Source of the DNA: Prochlorococcus marinus subsp. marinus str. CCMP1375 | GTDB taxonomy: Bacteria; Cyanobacteriota; Cyanobacteriia; PCC-6307; Cyanobiaceae | Assembly: GCF_000007925.1 (NCBI RefSeq) | Contig: NC_005042.1 | Coordinates: forward strand, 1,364,001-1,428,000 | Direction of reading: 5' to 3' | Length of the DNA stretch: 64,000 nt | In this document: positions 1,865-58,663 of the stretch, piece by piece | Layout: the number at the start of each line of letters is the position of its first letter | Position numbering within the stretch: position 1 is the stretch's first letter | Made by a program: the position numbers and the translations under genes | The notes under the pieces: model-generated | The model's database searches: none | Seen by the model: only the letters and a program-made list of their open reading frames with translations | Told to the model about the DNA's origin: nothing

Positions 1865-2206
1865 TCATTTACCCATTGCTCTTCTGAGTTTTTCTGCTTC
1901 ATCCATACCTTCCATAATCGTAAAGGTTGCATTTTTGGTTGCAGCGATACGAAGCTTCGATAACTCTTGATATTCCTCCGACTCATAAGCTTCAACAGCA
2001 GCACGCATAGAGGAGAACTCACAAATAACTGCCAAATTTGCCCCTTCTGTTCTTTCTTTCCCTTGTGGCTCTGTATCTTTTGCAAAAACTTCTCCACCAA
2101 CACCTTTTAGCCAAGGACCTACTTTCCCGACATACTCAGCAAATAAAGCTTGATTGATAACTGTTGAGGTTGAAATCCAATAGCCTTTCGCACCTTTCTT
2201 GTCCAT
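1865..2206 (-). CDS. DUF1330-family protein
   Basis: The 113-residue protein begins MDKKGAKGYWISTSTVINQA and shows the DUF1330 pattern: an initial GYW strand, an NLAVICEF strand in the middle and a conserved EAYESEEYQEL helix. The family folds as a dimeric ferredoxin-like alpha/beta barrel and its biochemical role is unknown. It is soluble and has no signal peptide. It sits downstream of two small secreted or cytosolic genes on the same strand and about 80 nt before the exporter gene. Confidence 0.85.
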   Translation of the reverse strand: MDKKGAKGYWISTSTVINQALFAEYVGKVGPWLKGVGGEVFAKDTEPQGKERTEGANLAVICEFSSMRAAVEAYESEEYQELSKLRIAATKNATFTIMEGMDEAEKLRRAMGK

Positions 2207-2253
2207 AAAAATAATTTAAAAGCCTAGAGAACTTTTTTAGTCCTCATTCAACA

Positions 2254-2364
2254 TTACCAATCTGGGTAACTAAAGTCATCTCCAATAGGCTCTTCATAAA
2301 ACCCTCCTTCTTTGATACCTCTCTTATAAATTTCAAGGAATCTAAGAAATAATTCAGGCATCAT
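2254..2364 (-). CDS. Small acidic protein, 36 aa
   Basis: A 37-codon ORF starting MMPELFLRFLEIYKRGIKEG and ending DDFSYPDW. Its ATG overlaps the stop of the upstream secreted-protein gene (ATGA), a classic coupled arrangement, which is the strongest evidence that it is translated. The family is not recognised. Confidence 0.55.
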   Translation of the reverse strand: MMPELFLRFLEIYKRGIKEGGFYEEPIGDDFSYPDW

Positions 2365-2561
2365 TTTTTGTTTTCAAGGCATACATAAGTATGGCGACCA
2401 GAAACTTCACTCCATTGTTCACCTAACTGCTCGCAATCAACTTTGTTAGCCATTTCTATCCTTTCTAAACCTGAACCTCTCTTGGAAAGGATTAAATAAT
2501 ATTCTTCGGCACTAGCAACTGGAATGGCAAGTGCACAGGAGATGAATAACAAAAAGCGCAT
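2361..2561 (-). CDS. Small secreted protein, 66 aa
   Basis: The N-terminus MRFLLFISCALAIPVASAEE is a clear Sec signal peptide with an ASA-E cleavage site, leaving a mature peptide of about 47 residues with two cysteines (CEQLG, YVCLE) that could pair in the periplasm. The layout matches the small secreted proteins at 58967-59188 and the decayed copy at 50019-50102, so it belongs to a multi-copy family in this window. Function unknown. Confidence 0.7.
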   Translation of the reverse strand: MRFLLFISCALAIPVASAEEYYLILSKRGSGLERIEMANKVDCEQLGEQWSEVSGRHTYVCLENKK

Positions 2562-2723
2562 TGACTACAATTACATGTCATTCTAATTATCTACAAAATT
2601 AACAGACATCGCAAAGGCCAAACTCATAAATCTAAGACTTCCTCAAATATCACTAATGCATATACCTTTGATTAGCTTGCTACATGAGCAGTCAAATCTC
2701 TAAGGCGTTTCAAAGGGTAACCA

Positions 2724-3254
2724 TTATTTTGTTACATCAACACTTCCCATAGGAGCCAAGAAATTCACTATTGCCGGTATCAAGAAAAGAACTGTTATTA
2801 ATCTGACCGCATGCAAAGCAGCAACAGCTGCACCAACACCAAACTCTGCTCCGACAAGACTCATTCCTATAGTTCCACCAGGTGCTGCCCCTAATAAGGC
2901 GACGATCTTTTCTACTCCAAAAAATCTACTAACCAGAAGACCAAGCAAAATGCCAGTTATCAAAAGAGTAAAAGTGATAATCAATGCAGGCTTCCAAAGC
3001 AATTGCAATTCACCCAATGTTTCTCTATTTATCCCTGTTCCAATAACTGTTCCTATACCTATGCCAAGTACTGTTTTTGTACCTAAAGGCCAATCTGCAA
3101 CTTCAAGTTGGCCACTAACGCTTAATAATCCAGCGCCCAAGATAGCTCCTAAAAGTGGTCCTGCAGGGATTCCGGTTAGAAGCATTAGGGAACCCAAGGT
3201 GGCACCAGCAAGAATGTATATCAACAAGATTAATAAAGAATGCATTTCAATCAA
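2724..3254 (-). CDS. AbrB-family integral membrane protein
   Basis: The 176-residue product has about five membrane helices and the family signatures GIPAGPLLGAILGAGLLS near residue 30 and LLGAAPGGTIGMSLVGAEFG near residue 120. It matches one repeat of the AbrB family (annotated in many genomes as putative ammonia monooxygenase or regulator), whose bacterial members usually carry two repeats in about 350 residues. Single-repeat forms are common in cyanobacteria. Transport function is presumed, substrate unknown. Confidence 0.8.
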   Translation of the reverse strand: MIEMHSLLILLIYILAGATLGSLMLLTGIPAGPLLGAILGAGLLSVSGQLEVADWPLGTKTVLGIGIGTVIGTGINRETLGELQLLWKPALIITFTLLITGILLGLLVSRFFGVEKIVALLGAAPGGTIGMSLVGAEFGVGAAVAALHAVRLITVLFLIPAIVNFLAPMGSVDVTK

Positions 3255-3463
3255 TTTGGCTATATCTCCAAGTTACTAGTGTTTAGGATTCATTTATCAA
3301 CTAAACAAGAGAAAATTCTGACTATCGTTATGATAAATACAAGTAACCTCCCACAGTCGTCATAGATGTATAAACTACTTGTTAAAAGTCAACTTAAGAA
3401 AGTTGCAAAAGCAAGTTGATGAAATATTGTGTTTTCTAACTAAATTAATACCGTTAAATATTC

Positions 3464-3691
3464 ATGACTGAAGCAAAAGACAAAAGAAAGTTTGATTGGA
3501 CAAAAATTTTCATAGGAATATCTCTACTTTTATGTGCATGCAGCCTTGCATTTATTTCAGTGAGTTTACGGCCAGTGGCTAAATGGGCTAATTATCAAAG
3601 TGTCTGTGTTGAACAAGAAAGCATCAAAGCTCCTATTTCATGGGCTGTTAGGAAGTGCAATGGACGTTCAAAGGTGTATCAAGTGAAATAA
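3464..3691 (+). CDS. Small single-pass membrane protein, 75 aa
   Basis: It has a basic cytoplasmic N-terminus (MTEAKDKRKFDWTK), one membrane helix at residues 15-37 (IFIGISLLLCACSLAFISVS) and an extracytoplasmic tail with two cysteines (VCVEQ, RKCNG). Family not recognised. It stands alone. Confidence 0.6.
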   Translation: MTEAKDKRKFDWTKIFIGISLLLCACSLAFISVSLRPVAKWANYQSVCVEQESIKAPISWAVRKCNGRSKVYQVK

Positions 3692-3930
3692 AACAAGGTC
3701 TTTTAAAAAAGATAGCTTCTATCACTAAATTGTTATGCTTGCTAACGAAAGAACTAAGATCTAAAAGTCAGTCTTCATAAAGGCTAAGGGATCCTGATCC
3801 TTCCATAATCATCTTTACTTCGATAGATTCTCTAAACAAGAAGCACGATAAAATTTCTATAAAATATTTGAAAGGCTATTGCAAAAAACAGCGGCAAGTA
3901 AGTCATCACTAACAATGAATAACAAGACAA

Positions 3931-25490: not shown

Positions 25491-25721
25491 TTAAGATTCA
25501 CTAATTGAGCTAAAACATTTTTCTTCAACCGATTTCAATCTTTGTTCAACTGACAAAATCCTTGATTCTATTCCCTTAGGGGAATCATTTTCTAGTTTAT
25601 TAGAAATAGTCTCAGAAACAAATGCTGAGATTGTTTGACCAGAACTAATAGCAACTCTTTTCAACTGCTCCATTAATTCAGGTTCAATATTGATATTAAG
25701 CTGTGTTCTTGTTGTAGCCAT
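25491..25721 (-). CDS. Ribbon-helix-helix regulator with coiled-coil tail, 76 aa
   Basis: The ATG at 25721 gives MATTRTQLNINIEPELMEQL, which aligns with the starts of the paralogues at 30509 and 50690; the upstream ATG at 25766 adds unrelated residues. The RHH DNA-binding fold spans residues 4-45 and a heptad-like tail (RILSVEQRLKSVEEK) follows. It is divergent from a short RHH gene at 25834, with three CTAG motifs between them. Probably a dimeric autoregulated repressor. Confidence 0.8.
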   Translation of the reverse strand: MATTRTQLNINIEPELMEQLKRVAISSGQTISAFVSETISNKLENDSPKGIESRILSVEQRLKSVEEKCFSSISES

Positions 25722-25804
25722 TGCTTTAGATTGAAAAGTAATTTTCATTTTTGCTAATATAACCACTAAAAATATTGATAGTCAGATAGATCAGCATTAT
25801 TGGA

Positions 25805-25827
25805 CTAGACTATCTAGATAAGGCTAG
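25805..25827. promoter_or_regulatory. CTAG iterons between divergent RHH genes
   Basis: CTAG occurs at 25805, 25814 and 25824, spaced 9 and 10 bp, so the motifs face the same side of the helix. RHH proteins bind short repeats of this kind cooperatively. The same design is found at 51413 and 57960. Confidence 0.55.
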
Positions 25828-25833
25828 TTGCAT

Positions 25834-26007
25834 GTGATTGAAAACAATAAGCAAGTACCACAAGAGGAGGAAATGTCCTTTGAATTAACTGATGAAATCA
25901 TTTTCAAACTAAGAACTTTTGCCAAGGAAGAGAATAAGAGTATCAATGAATTCATTAATGAGCTCCTTGAAGAAGCAATTAAAGAAGAAAATGAATCAGA
26001 AGATTAA
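25834..26007 (+). CDS. Short ribbon-helix-helix protein, 57 aa
   Basis: The RHH motif is SFELTDEIIFKLRTFAKEEN then SINEFINELLEEAI. I use GTG 25834 because the paralogue at 51481 has a similar 15-residue leader before its RHH part; ATG 25873, with AGGAGG only 2 nt away, is the alternative. The acidic tail EENESED follows. Divergent from the longer RHH gene. Confidence 0.7.
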   Translation: MIENNKQVPQEEEMSFELTDEIIFKLRTFAKEENKSINEFINELLEEAIKEENESED

Positions 26008-30508: not shown

Positions 30509-31066
30509 ATGGCAAAAAGAAGGTCCCAACTGAATATAAATATTGATCCAGAATTATTATTATGGCTAAAGACTGAATCAACTAAGTCAGGAAAAACTTT
30601 AACAGCCTTTGTCACTGAAAAACTAATGGGGACATCACCACCCTCTACTGATCATTTAGATTTACTGGAGAATAGACTCTTAAAGATAGAAGAACTGCTT
30701 CAGCTAAAAAACATATACTCTCATCAAGAAAATCAGATGGGAACTATTTTTACTGATGAGGGAGCAAAGAAATATGGTGAAGTTGCTAAGAGACTTTTTG
30801 AATCACATCGTAAACATAAAAACTTGTCTCTTGACGCTGCCTTGAAAGGCCTTGCTGATCATCTCAAAAATTACCCAAATAGTAATCCTGAACTGGTGTT
30901 CCAGATCCTATTAGGCAATCATGTCTTAACAGGTCCAGAAATGACAAATGCCTATAGAAGGGGATCTTGTGCCATGAGAAGCGCTCTATGCGATTGGAGC
31001 AATGACTCTTTAGAAGAATTAAACGAGGTTTTTCTAAATGCAGTGATTACTAAAAAGCTGGCTTAA
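30509..31066 (+). CDS. RHH regulator with a helical C-terminal domain, 185 aa
   Basis: MAKRRSQLNINIDPELLLWL opens an RHH domain (residues 5-45) homologous to those at 25491 and 50690, followed by a coiled coil (LLENRLLKIEELLQ) and a helical domain of about 110 residues (DEGAKKYGEVAKRLFESHRK, ALCDWSNDSLEELNEVFLNA). The C-terminal domain is distantly similar to that of the 50690 protein (LT-x-x-EM, W). Probably a DNA-binding regulator of the island. The longer frame from 30398 starts inside the upstream terminator, so the ATG at 30509 is used. Confidence 0.8.
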   Translation: MAKRRSQLNINIDPELLLWLKTESTKSGKTLTAFVTEKLMGTSPPSTDHLDLLENRLLKIEELLQLKNIYSHQENQMGTIFTDEGAKKYGEVAKRLFESHRKHKNLSLDAALKGLADHLKNYPNSNPELVFQILLGNHVLTGPEMTNAYRRGSCAMRSALCDWSNDSLEELNEVFLNAVITKKLA

Positions 31067-38125: not shown

Positions 38126-40240
38126 TTATTTTATTAAATTATTCTCTTTTAAAAAGTTTAGAAGGTCATTGCTATAGTGTTTTGCAGTAGCATATGAAAT
38201 ATGATTAGTATCTGAATATATGTATTCATTATTCTCTTTATTAAGACAAATCTTATTAGGGCAAATTTTATCAAATAAATCATATATATACACATTACTT
38301 TGATTTAAACTAATCTCTTTTAAAGCAGAGGTTATTGGTTTGATTCTAGTAATTAAAAAGTTCTTTTCTTCCTTATATACCTTGCAATCTTCATTTATAT
38401 ATGGTCGAAACCACTCTTCCAGGCATGAGTATTGAGGTGGTGGATTATCAATACCTTCAAATACAGGTAAAGGGGATACAATAACAATATGAATACCTAG
38501 TTTCTTTACTCTTTCTGCTAAAGATCTGACTTTTTCAGTCCATTCTATTAATGATTCATCTGCTTCAATTTCTTTCAGACTATCTGAGTAATGCTTAACA
38601 GGAAAATCACCTTTTGTAATTATCGGTTCAATAAAATATTTATCTAGTCTTGATGATAAGACAATAATATCGTTTTCTTTAAGCAGTGGAAGTCTATTTT
38701 CGAATGCTTCATTTGTATTTCTAAATCTTTCTTTAGAAACATCAAGTGTATTACCTGCTTTGTCTGTAAAATGTGTTGTGGGGTAAGGACCTGGAGAGGA
38801 TACATACACACCTACTCCTGATAAATTATGTAAAGCTCCAATCAGTGGTATTAAGTGTCCCGCATGGCTATCTCCAATCAATAGAATTGTTGGCAAATCA
38901 GCTTCTTTTGATGCTGTATAACAGCTTTTGACTAAATCAGATTGATGGCAAGAACCATATGTAGCTGATATATATTCAGAAGAGTAACCTCCATCAATAT
39001 CTATATTATGTTTACCAATGAACAATTTTTTGTTTATTGGTTGCAAAGAATTCAGGATAGATAGTCTTGGAGTCCTAATGAAGCAAATTACTAAAAATAT
39101 ACTTGTCGTGATCACACAAAGTATAGAAAAATATATACTTTTTAGCTTGCTAATATTATATTTGCTTTTTCGTATAGGCAACTCTATATAATCATAGGAA
39201 AAAGTAGATATAAAATACATAAAATATAGCTGAAATGGAAGAGTCCACCAATGTATTCCTACCGTCCACTTGCTAATAGAAATTACGCCCCAGTGCCAAA
39301 GATATAATGAATATGAAATTAAGCCTAAATTCATGCATAACTTTGTTGTTAATATTTTATAAACTTTATCGTTCATTTTAATTCTAATGATCAAAAGACA
39401 TGTAAATAAAATAATTGCAAGTGTTGAAGAGAATATATACTTACCAGGACTAAACATGATTAAAATTAAAGCTATAAATATCAAAGATGTTTTGAGATAT
39501 TTAAACTTATTAATTACTGATAATAATTTTTCTTTATATATAAATAGCAGGCTTCCAGCTGCTATTTCCCAAAACCTAAAAGGCATAAGGTAATAGGCTG
39601 CATTTATATTTATTTGAAGAAAATGGTAAAACCCAATTAATGAAATAAAAGCAAAGAATATAAGTATAATTCCAAGATATTTATATCCATTCTTGCTGCC
39701 ATTCCCAAATCCTGAGAACCATGTGAGGAAAGGAAATATCAAGTAAAATTGTTCTTCTACTGCTAAAGACCATGTCTGGGTGAATGGATTTAACAATGTT
39801 GTCTCTGCAAAATAATTATTTGAAATTACAAAAAGGTGTATATTCGAGAAACCAAATGTTGAGAATAAGCCTGTCAGATAAGAAGAGACTGGTTGCGGAT
39901 CAAATAAACTTATTACAAAGAACATTATAAGAACATAAAACAATAACGCAGGTAAAATCCTCTTTAACCTCCTTTCGTAAAAACCCAATATGAATTCTGA
40001 TATCCTTGATTCTTGACGAGTTGCCAGTGAAGATGTAATTACATAACCTGAAATTACAAAGAAAATATCTACACCTAAGAACCCACTGGGAAGTAAATCA
40101 TTATTTATATGGTTAATTATAACTGCAATTACTGCTATCGCTCTTAACCCATTTATTTCTGGTCTAAAGCCTTTAGTGCTTAAATTCTCTTTCTCATAAT
40201 AATCTTTGTGAAATAGATCATATTGCGATTTGCTTTTCAT
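38126..40240 (-). CDS. OafA/YrhL-type O-acyltransferase with C-terminal SGNH domain
   Basis: Residues about 25-375 form the membrane acyltransferase-3 domain with ten or so helices (INGLRAIAVIAVIINHIN, GVDIFFVISGYV, WSLAVEEQFYL). Residues about 430-700 form an extracytoplasmic SGNH hydrolase domain with LLIGDSHAGH and the terminal DTNHISYATA (D-x-x-H). Such fusions transfer acetyl groups to O-antigen, capsule or peptidoglycan sugars. The 704-residue length is normal. An alternative cell-surface modification role could alter phage receptors. The gene is notably AT-rich compared with neighbours, consistent with transfer. Confidence 0.92.
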   Translation of the reverse strand: MKSKSQYDLFHKDYYEKENLSTKGFRPEINGLRAIAVIAVIINHINNDLLPSGFLGVDIFFVISGYVITSSLATRQESRISEFILGFYERRLKRILPALLFYVLIMFFVISLFDPQPVSSYLTGLFSTFGFSNIHLFVISNNYFAETTLLNPFTQTWSLAVEEQFYLIFPFLTWFSGFGNGSKNGYKYLGIILIFFAFISLIGFYHFLQININAAYYLMPFRFWEIAAGSLLFIYKEKLLSVINKFKYLKTSLIFIALILIMFSPGKYIFSSTLAIILFTCLLIIRIKMNDKVYKILTTKLCMNLGLISYSLYLWHWGVISISKWTVGIHWWTLPFQLYFMYFISTFSYDYIELPIRKSKYNISKLKSIYFSILCVITTSIFLVICFIRTPRLSILNSLQPINKKLFIGKHNIDIDGGYSSEYISATYGSCHQSDLVKSCYTASKEADLPTILLIGDSHAGHLIPLIGALHNLSGVGVYVSSPGPYPTTHFTDKAGNTLDVSKERFRNTNEAFENRLPLLKENDIIVLSSRLDKYFIEPIITKGDFPVKHYSDSLKEIEADESLIEWTEKVRSLAERVKKLGIHIVIVSPLPVFEGIDNPPPQYSCLEEWFRPYINEDCKVYKEEKNFLITRIKPITSALKEISLNQSNVYIYDLFDKICPNKICLNKENNEYIYSDTNHISYATAKHYSNDLLNFLKENNLIK

Positions 40241-40504
40241 TCTTATTCAGCAGATTTCTCTTGACAAATGAGGAATTACGCTGACTGCTGAAGCATTAAA
40301 ACATATTTTTCTAGATTATCTAGGTACGCTAGATCAGGCTGTTACTTTTGAAATGATAAAAAGCCTAAAATTAACCTATAACTACCTTTGGCTGATTTCT
40401 CTTCTTTTACAAATTCAGCTATTTATGTATAAATCCTATAAGCGCTTTACATTCCATTTCTAGCTTTTCCTGAAAGACTCTTCGTTTTGGACAAAAATAA
40501 AGAG

Positions 40505-50689: not shown

Positions 50690-51310
50690 TCACAAAGCAT
50701 ATAATTGTTCTAAAAGCTTCTCACCTTCGTCACAGATAGTTTGCTGTGATGGAAAGTACTCATTAGCACAACTGCATTTGCCCTTCGGTTGATTATTGAT
50801 CCAATTGATCAATCCCGTTCTGATCGGGCAAGGGCATATTTTGCCTTTAGTTAATGAGTTCATTTCATCGCAAGTTAAGTCATCTCCACCCTTGATAAAC
50901 AGAGCCTCTTTCAACCTAAGGGTAATGATGTCATTCCACTGATCGAAACATTCGATGTGACCAATTAAATCATTCCATGCATCAATACTTGAATTATATT
51001 GCTGCCTTTTGGTCTCTTCTAGAAAGACACCTTTGATAAATGCATTACAATTTTCTGCTTCGCTAATTGTAAATGGAGTGATTTTTTGACCCGAAGAGAC
51101 CTGAGAACAACACTTTTCAAGAGAACTTATTTTTTGTTCAACTGCAAAAAGCCTAGCCTCTAGAGTTCGTTCAGAAATAGTGTTATTTAATTGATTAGTT
51201 ATAGCATCAGAAACAAGCTCTGTTAAGGTTCTGCGTTGCTTACTCGCTTCAGATTTCAGCTTTAACAATAAGTCAGGATTAATATTAATGTTTAACTGAG
51301 TTCTAAGCAT
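50690..51310 (-). CDS. RHH regulator with Cys-rich C-terminal domain, 206 aa
   Basis: RTQLNINPDLLLKLKSEA-type RHH fold at residues 3-42, a coiled coil (LEARLFAVEQKISSLEKCC) and a C-terminal domain related to that of the 30509 protein. About ten cysteines, clustered in KICPCPIRTG and KGKCSCANEYF, could bind zinc or an iron-sulfur cluster and sense redox or metals. Divergent from a short RHH gene, with CTAG iterons between. Confidence 0.8.
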   Translation of the reverse strand: MLRTQLNININPDLLLKLKSEASKQRRTLTELVSDAITNQLNNTISERTLEARLFAVEQKISSLEKCCSQVSSGQKITPFTISEAENCNAFIKGVFLEETKRQQYNSSIDAWNDLIGHIECFDQWNDIITLRLKEALFIKGGDDLTCDEMNSLTKGKICPCPIRTGLINWINNQPKGKCSCANEYFPSQQTICDEGEKLLEQLYAL

Positions 51311-51412: not shown

Positions 51413-51449
51413 CTAGATAGGTCTAGACACGTCTAGAGGCTCTAGCTAG
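51413..51449. promoter_or_regulatory. CTAG iterons between divergent RHH genes
   Basis: GTCTAGA occurs at 51411, 51421 and 51431, exactly 10 bp apart, and further CTAGs at 51442 and 51446. Direct repeats on one helical face between two divergent RHH genes are what an RHH operator looks like. Confidence 0.65.
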
Positions 51450-51480: not shown

Positions 51481-51630
51481 ATGTCTGAGGATTTAACTAA
51501 TAATTCTGTAGGCCCTCAAATAACTATGGAGTTAAATAACGAGGTCATGGCTAAGCTGAACTATATAGCAAAAGAGAGGAAGATGACTATCAATGAACTG
51601 ATTAATCGCCTTCTAGCAGAATCAATTTAG
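51481..51630 (+). CDS. Short ribbon-helix-helix protein, 49 aa
   Basis: MSEDLTNNSVGPQITMELNN then VMAKLNYIAKERKMTINELI forms an RHH fold. Paralogue of 25834-26007 with the same divergent arrangement. Possibly the co-repressor or antagonist of the long RHH partner. Confidence 0.72.
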   Translation: MSEDLTNNSVGPQITMELNNEVMAKLNYIAKERKMTINELINRLLAESI

Positions 51631-57959: not shown

Positions 57960-57981
57960 CTAGACGATCTAGTTTGGCTAG
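57960..57981. promoter_or_regulatory. CTAG array upstream of the 58025 gene
   Basis: CTAG at 57960, 57969 and 57978, each 9 bp apart, about 45-65 bp before the ATG. Same style as the arrays at the two RHH loci, so a candidate target of an RHH regulator. Confidence 0.45.
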
Positions 57982-58024: not shown

Positions 58025-58663
58025 ATGAAAAAGAAAGCATTAGTCATATCTTGTATGTCTTTCATAGCTTTAGGAAGTTTCTTAACACCCCAATCCCAAG
58101 CATATGAAATGGAAGGCACCTGTGATGGAGCTGATAAATGCAAAGTGACTATCAACGGAGATCAAATAAATACTAGTACAGGAATTAATATTAGCTCCGA
58201 TAATATTATTGGCTGGTCATTCAGTAATTCTTCAAAACGAGGCGGATTTTTCCCTGGTTACAGGAACGAAGATTATCGAATACTTATCAAGTACTTCGAT
58301 AAATCTGGAAAGCGCAAAATAAATCAAATTGGTTTCTATAATGCTAAAACAACTCATAATTTCCTAACTAGCCTGGAGCTAATTTCTGGGCTTGGAGTTA
58401 ATCATGATCAAGCAGGAGTGACAACTAAATGTTCAGCTAGAGGCAAAGATAGTAATACAGGGAAAGACGGAAAAAGCACTTTGTTTGGTGTTAATGGCGT
58501 CACGACCAATGGTGGGGCCTTTAGTCTGAAGAAAAACTTCATTAGTGATACACGAAGCGTTCCTGCCAACTCAAACTCATTCTCTGACGATTCATTTACT
58601 GGTAGAGATGACTGTGTAGATGAACCAAAAGTTGGGCCTCTAGAAATTAAGAATGTAAATTAG
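58025..58663 (+). CDS. Secreted protein of unknown function, 212 aa
   Basis: A signal peptide (MKKKALVISCMSFIALGSFL, cut near SQA-Y) and a mature domain starting YEMEGTCDGADKCKVTINGD. It shares layout with the 59583 protein: C-x-G-x-K-C-K near the start, I-x-x-W, then YFDKSGKRKINQIGFYNAKT and a helix (NFLTSLELISGLG). The second half is Ser/Asn/Gly-rich. Probably periplasmic or surface. A clear terminator follows. Confidence 0.75.
   Translation: MKKKALVISCMSFIALGSFLTPQSQAYEMEGTCDGADKCKVTINGDQINTSTGINISSDNIIGWSFSNSSKRGGFFPGYRNEDYRILIKYFDKSGKRKINQIGFYNAKTTHNFLTSLELISGLGVNHDQAGVTTKCSARGKDSNTGKDGKSTLFGVNGVTTNGGAFSLKKNFISDTRSVPANSNSFSDDSFTGRDDCVDEPKVGPLEIKNVN

Follow-up and report, generated by a model that had tools for sequence, protein, structure and literature searches.

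Tandem arrays of the palindromic core CTAG, with a usual period of 9 bp, are conserved in Prochlorococcus, lie close to promoters, and are associated both with genes for a family of small DNA-binding, ribbon-helix-helix (RHH) proteins and with genes for the cell surface. Judging by sequence, they are probably the operators of an autoregulated RHH family that binds them and through them controls a cell-surface regulon. The window, i.e., the whole stretch of DNA analyzed, is 64,000 nucleotides long and covers bases 1,364,001–1,428,000 of a genome assembled as one contig of 1,751,080 bp. Prochlorococcus has a streamlined genome and is a very abundant photosynthesizer of the ocean. To our knowledge, little is understood of how it regulates the porins, adhesins, and surface glycans with which it faces phages and nutrients, and a literature search on the CTAG motif, RHH regulators, or DUF3721 in Prochlorococcus found no paper on this system. 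A short recognizable operator together with a likely regulator would let a surface regulon be read off the sequence of cultured strains and single-cell genomes alike, and the idea of a CTAG-array operator is a concrete hypothesis for simple in vitro binding.

Arrays and divergent RHH gene pairs in the window

The first-pass annotation had described a long RHH gene on the minus strand and a short one on the plus strand, diverging from a gap with three CTAG cores, and a second copy of the whole arrangement elsewhere in the window. Both are borne out. At locus A, the long gene is called as an ORF at 25491–25721 (−), encoding 76 aa from a likely ATG start at 25721 (protein MATTRTQLNIN...), although the frame spans 25491–25766 (−) and is open to a GTG at 25766. 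Array A (25805–25827), a putative RHH operator, has its three cores at 25805, 25814, and 25824, as had been noted, with spacings of 9 and 10 bp. The short gene begins 45 bp beyond the end of the array, at 25873–26007 (+); it encodes 44 aa, matches CopG and Arc by the short-RHH profile, and has GAGGAGG directly 5′ of it. The gap, put earlier at roughly 110 bp, measures 106 bp from the GTG start, or about 150 bp from the likely ATG.

At locus B, the long gene (50690–51310, −) encodes 206 aa, with an RHH domain, a linker helix, and a helical C-terminal domain containing conserved Cys159, Cys179, and Cys181. Array B (51413–51449) has five cores (51413, 51423, 51433, 51442, and 51446), spaced by 10, 10, 9, and 4 bp, and ends 31 bp before the short gene (51481–51630, +; 49 aa), for which an RHH fold is predicted by profile and structure model. 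In both loci the array is about 83–102 bp from the long start codon. The description of the cores as helically phased was loose: spacings are 9/10 bp in A and 10/10/9 bp in B, and the family norm of 9 bp is less than a helical turn.

Scanning the window for triple arrays with the pattern CTAGN{5,6}CTAGN{5,6}CTAG gave five matches, where dinucleotide shuffles predict 0.01, while single CTAG sites are in no excess (189 against 209 expected). The five matches make up four arrays, which are the only triple arrays in the whole 1.75-Mb genome, and all four fall inside 32 kb (P ~2e-5 for four random points so close together). Two are those at the RHH pairs, A and B. The other two, absent from the first-pass annotation, each have three cores at 9-bp spacing and stand near other predicted targets. 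Array C (40311–40332) is 70 bp upstream of a gene for a 704-aa acyltransferase-3/SGNH protein, a predicted surface glycan acyltransferase (38126–40240, −), and array D (57960–57981) is 43 bp upstream of one for a predicted exported protein of 212 aa without a Pfam match (58025–58663, +). As read from the sequences, arrays A, C, and D are also alike outside the CTAG cores, with roughly CTAGAYKATCTAG and then GCTAG. Isolated pairs of CTAG at 9 bp, of which the genome has 41, were dropped as a sole criterion for targets because they are too unspecific.

A third long-family RHH gene in the window (30509–31066, +; ~185 aa) has no upstream CTAG array, but several of its homologues elsewhere do.

Conservation of the arrays and the genes beside them

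The related named-genome records compared were essentially all from Prochlorococcus, and the homologue set for array conservation consisted of 55 RHH loci from named genomes, forming 38 similarity clusters. Upstream of the RHH genes, 27 CTAG pairs at 9 bp were found in 13.6 kb, against 18 in the 418 kb making up the rest of the same loci, a density about 46 times higher. Such a pair is present upstream in 20 of the 55 loci and 16 of the 38 clusters (shuffle mean 0.2), and missing from the other 35 loci; pairs at 11–16 bp do not occur upstream at any of the 55. The consensus repeat unit, symmetrized and loose, is about ATCTAGAT, with a 9-bp period. Triple arrays in 13 genomes of the same genus follow the same spacing, with 22 at 9–10 bp and none at 16–17 bp. 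The first-pass annotation had held that its operator idea would fall if CTAG were not kept in homologous gaps, or were spaced no better than in random intergenic DNA. Repeats at regular spacing are in fact kept upstream of RHH homologues, far above shuffled and alternatively spaced controls, so the operator idea stands.

That the repeats reflect chance, base composition, or recombination sites is hardly credible. The core is a palindrome, and pairs at 9 bp recur singly around this genome, as noted above, but the shuffle, spacing, and position controls all contradict a chance origin, and the arrays are promoter-proximal. Recombination sites are also disfavored by a search for tRNA genes, with tRNA-linked island integration in mind, which found none in the 64-kb window.

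A more serious alternative is that the arrays are operators of some other factor, with the RHH genes merely among its targets. The link between RHH genes and arrays is an association, and two genomes have arrays without a detected RHH homologue. Across genomes, however, array presence tracks the RHH family: triple arrays are found in 32 of 43 RHH-positive genomes but only 2 of 20 RHH-negative ones, the latter being mostly larger and of other composition, and in 2 of 9 when only RHH-negative genomes under 2 Mb are counted. Palindromic cores in short tandem repeats are moreover what RHH arrays usually consist of, the omega regulator being an example (PMC4803016). Another factor is on balance improbable, and binding by the RHH proteins themselves is preferred.

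In all, 64 distinct triple arrays were examined, of which about ten are inside long genes and most others intergenic. RHH genes themselves are among the downstream genes. OprB porins divergent from DUF3721 lipoproteins flank arrays at L018, L165, and L084–L087, and the genes downstream of others encode OMP beta-barrels (L067, L174), an inverse autotransporter (L069), a YadA-head protein (L173), RTX-repeat proteins (L151, L164, L181, L014), a glycosyltransferase (L068), an HldE-like kinase/nucleotidyltransferase (L152), and methyltransferases (L163, L019). By these annotations, most array targets would be either RHH genes or genes for the cell surface. In lineages whose long RHH gene is without an array of its own, an array is found instead in the promoter of the neighboring porin or lipoprotein gene. 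This is the best indication that the array is part of the RHH system and that this system has the cell surface under its control. The earlier picture of a local regulator pair was right about RHH pairs with CTAG gaps, but too local, since the arrays also mark cell-surface genes.

Beside several long RHH genes (L084 at 1933–3870, L082, L085–L087, and L090) there is a conserved cluster encoding an OprB-like porin with a His/Met-rich N-terminus, a DUF3721 lipoprotein, and a 147-aa GLTT/DUF3721 protein, with a possible link to metals. In another genome (L013, G026:C1, near 1501), a triple array lies between divergent genes that by eye resemble components of type IV pilus or type II secretion systems.

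The long and short RHH proteins

The long protein of locus B has full-length homologues in many Prochlorococcus genomes, and there are two further long subfamilies of ~180–205 aa. The QLNIN strand is conserved in the long family. Cys159 is invariant over all three subfamilies; B-type proteins also always keep Cys181 and nearly always Cys179. In the predicted structure of the B protein, a long helix follows the N-terminal RHH domain, and the C-terminal part is helical as well. Residues 1–73 align with RHH chains of PutA, CopG, and antitoxins (Z 4.2–5.6), by which the N-terminus of the model has the RHH fold. The C-terminal part, searched within the whole-protein model, had no convincing PDB match. 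A comparison with NikR-like regulators would draw on Cys159, Cys179, and Cys181 in this predicted C-terminal domain, without a structural match there.

The long protein of locus A is 43% identical to residues 3–90 of the locus B protein, and on this alignment is a truncated B-type copy, retaining the RHH domain and linker helix without the C-terminal domain. A similar truncated long form of 76–86 aa is encoded at L096. A separate family of RHH-plus-linker proteins of 73–74 aa occurs in other Prochlorococcus (L117, L123, L126, L129, and L133 near 4000), mostly without CTAG arrays.

The short proteins are bare RHH domains with the strand-helix-helix fold of the MetJ/Arc superfamily. A short-RHH profile matches CopG (E 7e-4) and Arc (E 5e-3), and the best match to the structure model is Arc (probability 0.99), although the RHH strand is left unassigned by DSSP in the monomer model. 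A tblastn search recovered the short RHH from two genomes, this one included, and weakly from a third. A conclusion from this that it is not conserved was overturned by HMM searches and inspection of the ORFs opposite the arrays, where the sequences proved merely to have diverged. Such diverged short RHH genes are found opposite a long RHH gene, with a CTAG repeat between, at L081, L046, L047, and L050, and probable remnants at L088 and L083. The search of related genomes for divergent long/short pairs that the first-pass annotation had proposed thus shows the arrangement kept in several diverged genomes, with a short RHH opposite a long one in at least four others. Two more short genes (L077, L065) have no adjoining long partner, yet each has a 9-bp CTAG pair directly upstream. 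Altogether, a CTAG repeat is just upstream of all eight short RHH genes found. In seven of the eight short proteins, the Asn found in the DNA-contacting strand of the long family is replaced by an acidic residue. The difference may reflect another preference for DNA, or a partner that does not itself bind.

All Pfam matches of the RHH proteins are weak, below curated cut-offs, and to antitoxin RHH families. RHH folds are frequent in antitoxins, and the pairs might on these grounds be antitoxins or remnants of toxin-antitoxin systems, the arrays serving ordinary autoregulation. This is very unlikely: arrays also stand ahead of surface genes with no RHH gene anywhere near, and among the neighbors of both pairs that were scanned, none matched a known toxin or defense family.

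Possible modes of regulation and known relatives

With RHH proteins as the binding factors, one RHH dimer would occupy each palindromic CTAG core (a unit of 9 bp), and neighboring dimers would, on RHH precedent, cooperate along the array. An array between divergent genes would serve for auto- and cross-regulation of the long and short RHH genes, and the same arrays elsewhere would bring the acyltransferase, the exported protein, porins, adhesins, and glycan enzymes into the same circuit. The long protein may sense a signal through its C-terminal domain with the conserved cysteines, and the short protein, as a bare RHH domain, may compete for the array or co-occupy it. It can be speculated that the signal is metal or redox, as hinted by these cysteines and by the His/Met-rich porins and DUF3721 lipoproteins near several long RHH genes.

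The most likely direction of regulation at the pairs is repression of the short gene, since the array is only 31–45 bp before its start codon. With about 83–102 bp on the other side, occupancy probably blocks the short promoter and lies upstream of the long one. A fixed distance from array to minus-10 element was sought among the array promoters and not found, so that both activation and repression are compatible with the arrays at other targets.

The first-pass annotation had suggested a bistable or antagonistic switch. In such a switch, mutual repression from the shared array, or the formation of inactive heterodimers, would lead to alternative surface states. The position of the shared array, closer to the short gene than to the long one at both loci, is compatible with a switch without demonstrating one, and conservation of the long/short pair in several diverged genomes and the acidic strand residue of most short proteins would also fit. 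Simple co-repression, however, fits the anatomy equally well, and the two short genes without an adjoining long partner do not suit a switch, which is accordingly a possible but rather unlikely reading. A tentative extension of it, likewise rather unlikely, is that the lineage-specific long/short pair is a sensor-plus-antagonist switch for a modular surface regulon, acting by way of portable 9-bp CTAG arrays. If true, regulator-poor cells could remodel the surface met by phages and grazers, the regulon in this case being porins, adhesins, RTX proteins, and glycan enzymes.

The system as a whole, an RHH family with tandem CTAG operators, appears to be of a known kind, the array-binding RHH regulator; what seems unusual, on the gene arrangements found, is the conserved divergent long/short pair and the predicted surface regulon. 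As in omega- and MetJ-like systems, regular short tandem repeats are present at the promoters of both the RHH genes and the targets. MetJ binds palindromic short boxes in tandem, with one RHH dimer to each; these are met boxes of 8 bp, with S-adenosylmethionine as co-repressor and methionine genes as targets. Tandem palindromic boxes are common to MetJ and the CTAG system; the other features set MetJ apart. Arc (phage P22) and CopG are, like the short protein, bare RHH domains, and provide the nearest structures and profiles to it, but come from phage and plasmid contexts with other operators and no surface regulon.

The omega regulator of plasmid pSM19035 is a MetJ/Arc-type RHH protein acting on arrays of heptad repeats, with one dimer per repeat, cooperative polymerization, autoregulation, and several promoters (PMC4803016). 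The likeness is in an RHH protein with arrays of short tandem repeats in promoters, here predicted from sequence. The omega repeat is NATCACN at 7 bp rather than CTAG at 9 bp, it serves plasmid partition and the control of copy number, whereas a cell-surface role is predicted here, and the text of PMC4803016 describes no divergent long/short partner. TrcR of Anabaena PCC 7120 is an autoregulated cyanobacterial RHH repressor whose multi-gene regulon shows conserved sites; Prochlorococcus reportedly lacks it (PMC10272220). Its TGTAGTAT-like motif and translation regulon differ from CTAG at 9 bp and surface genes. FciC of marine Synechococcus is a short RHH protein (55–67 aa) in a picocyanobacterial gene island (PMC3877281), but is found alongside AraC-type regulators and chromatic-acclimation genes, and CTAG is unmentioned in the text of that paper.

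Two further observations concern the same genome outside the window. A fourth long-type RHH gene (L070, G000:C1:1132800-1134600; gene at 545–1162, 205 aa) has a CTAG pair 9 bp apart, ~91 bp upstream. Elsewhere the genome has two intergenic copies of the element CTAGATCAGCTAG, ~650 bp apart (L188; G000:C1:562656 and 563302), the first of which is 25 bp ahead of a gene whose product is small and hydrophobic.
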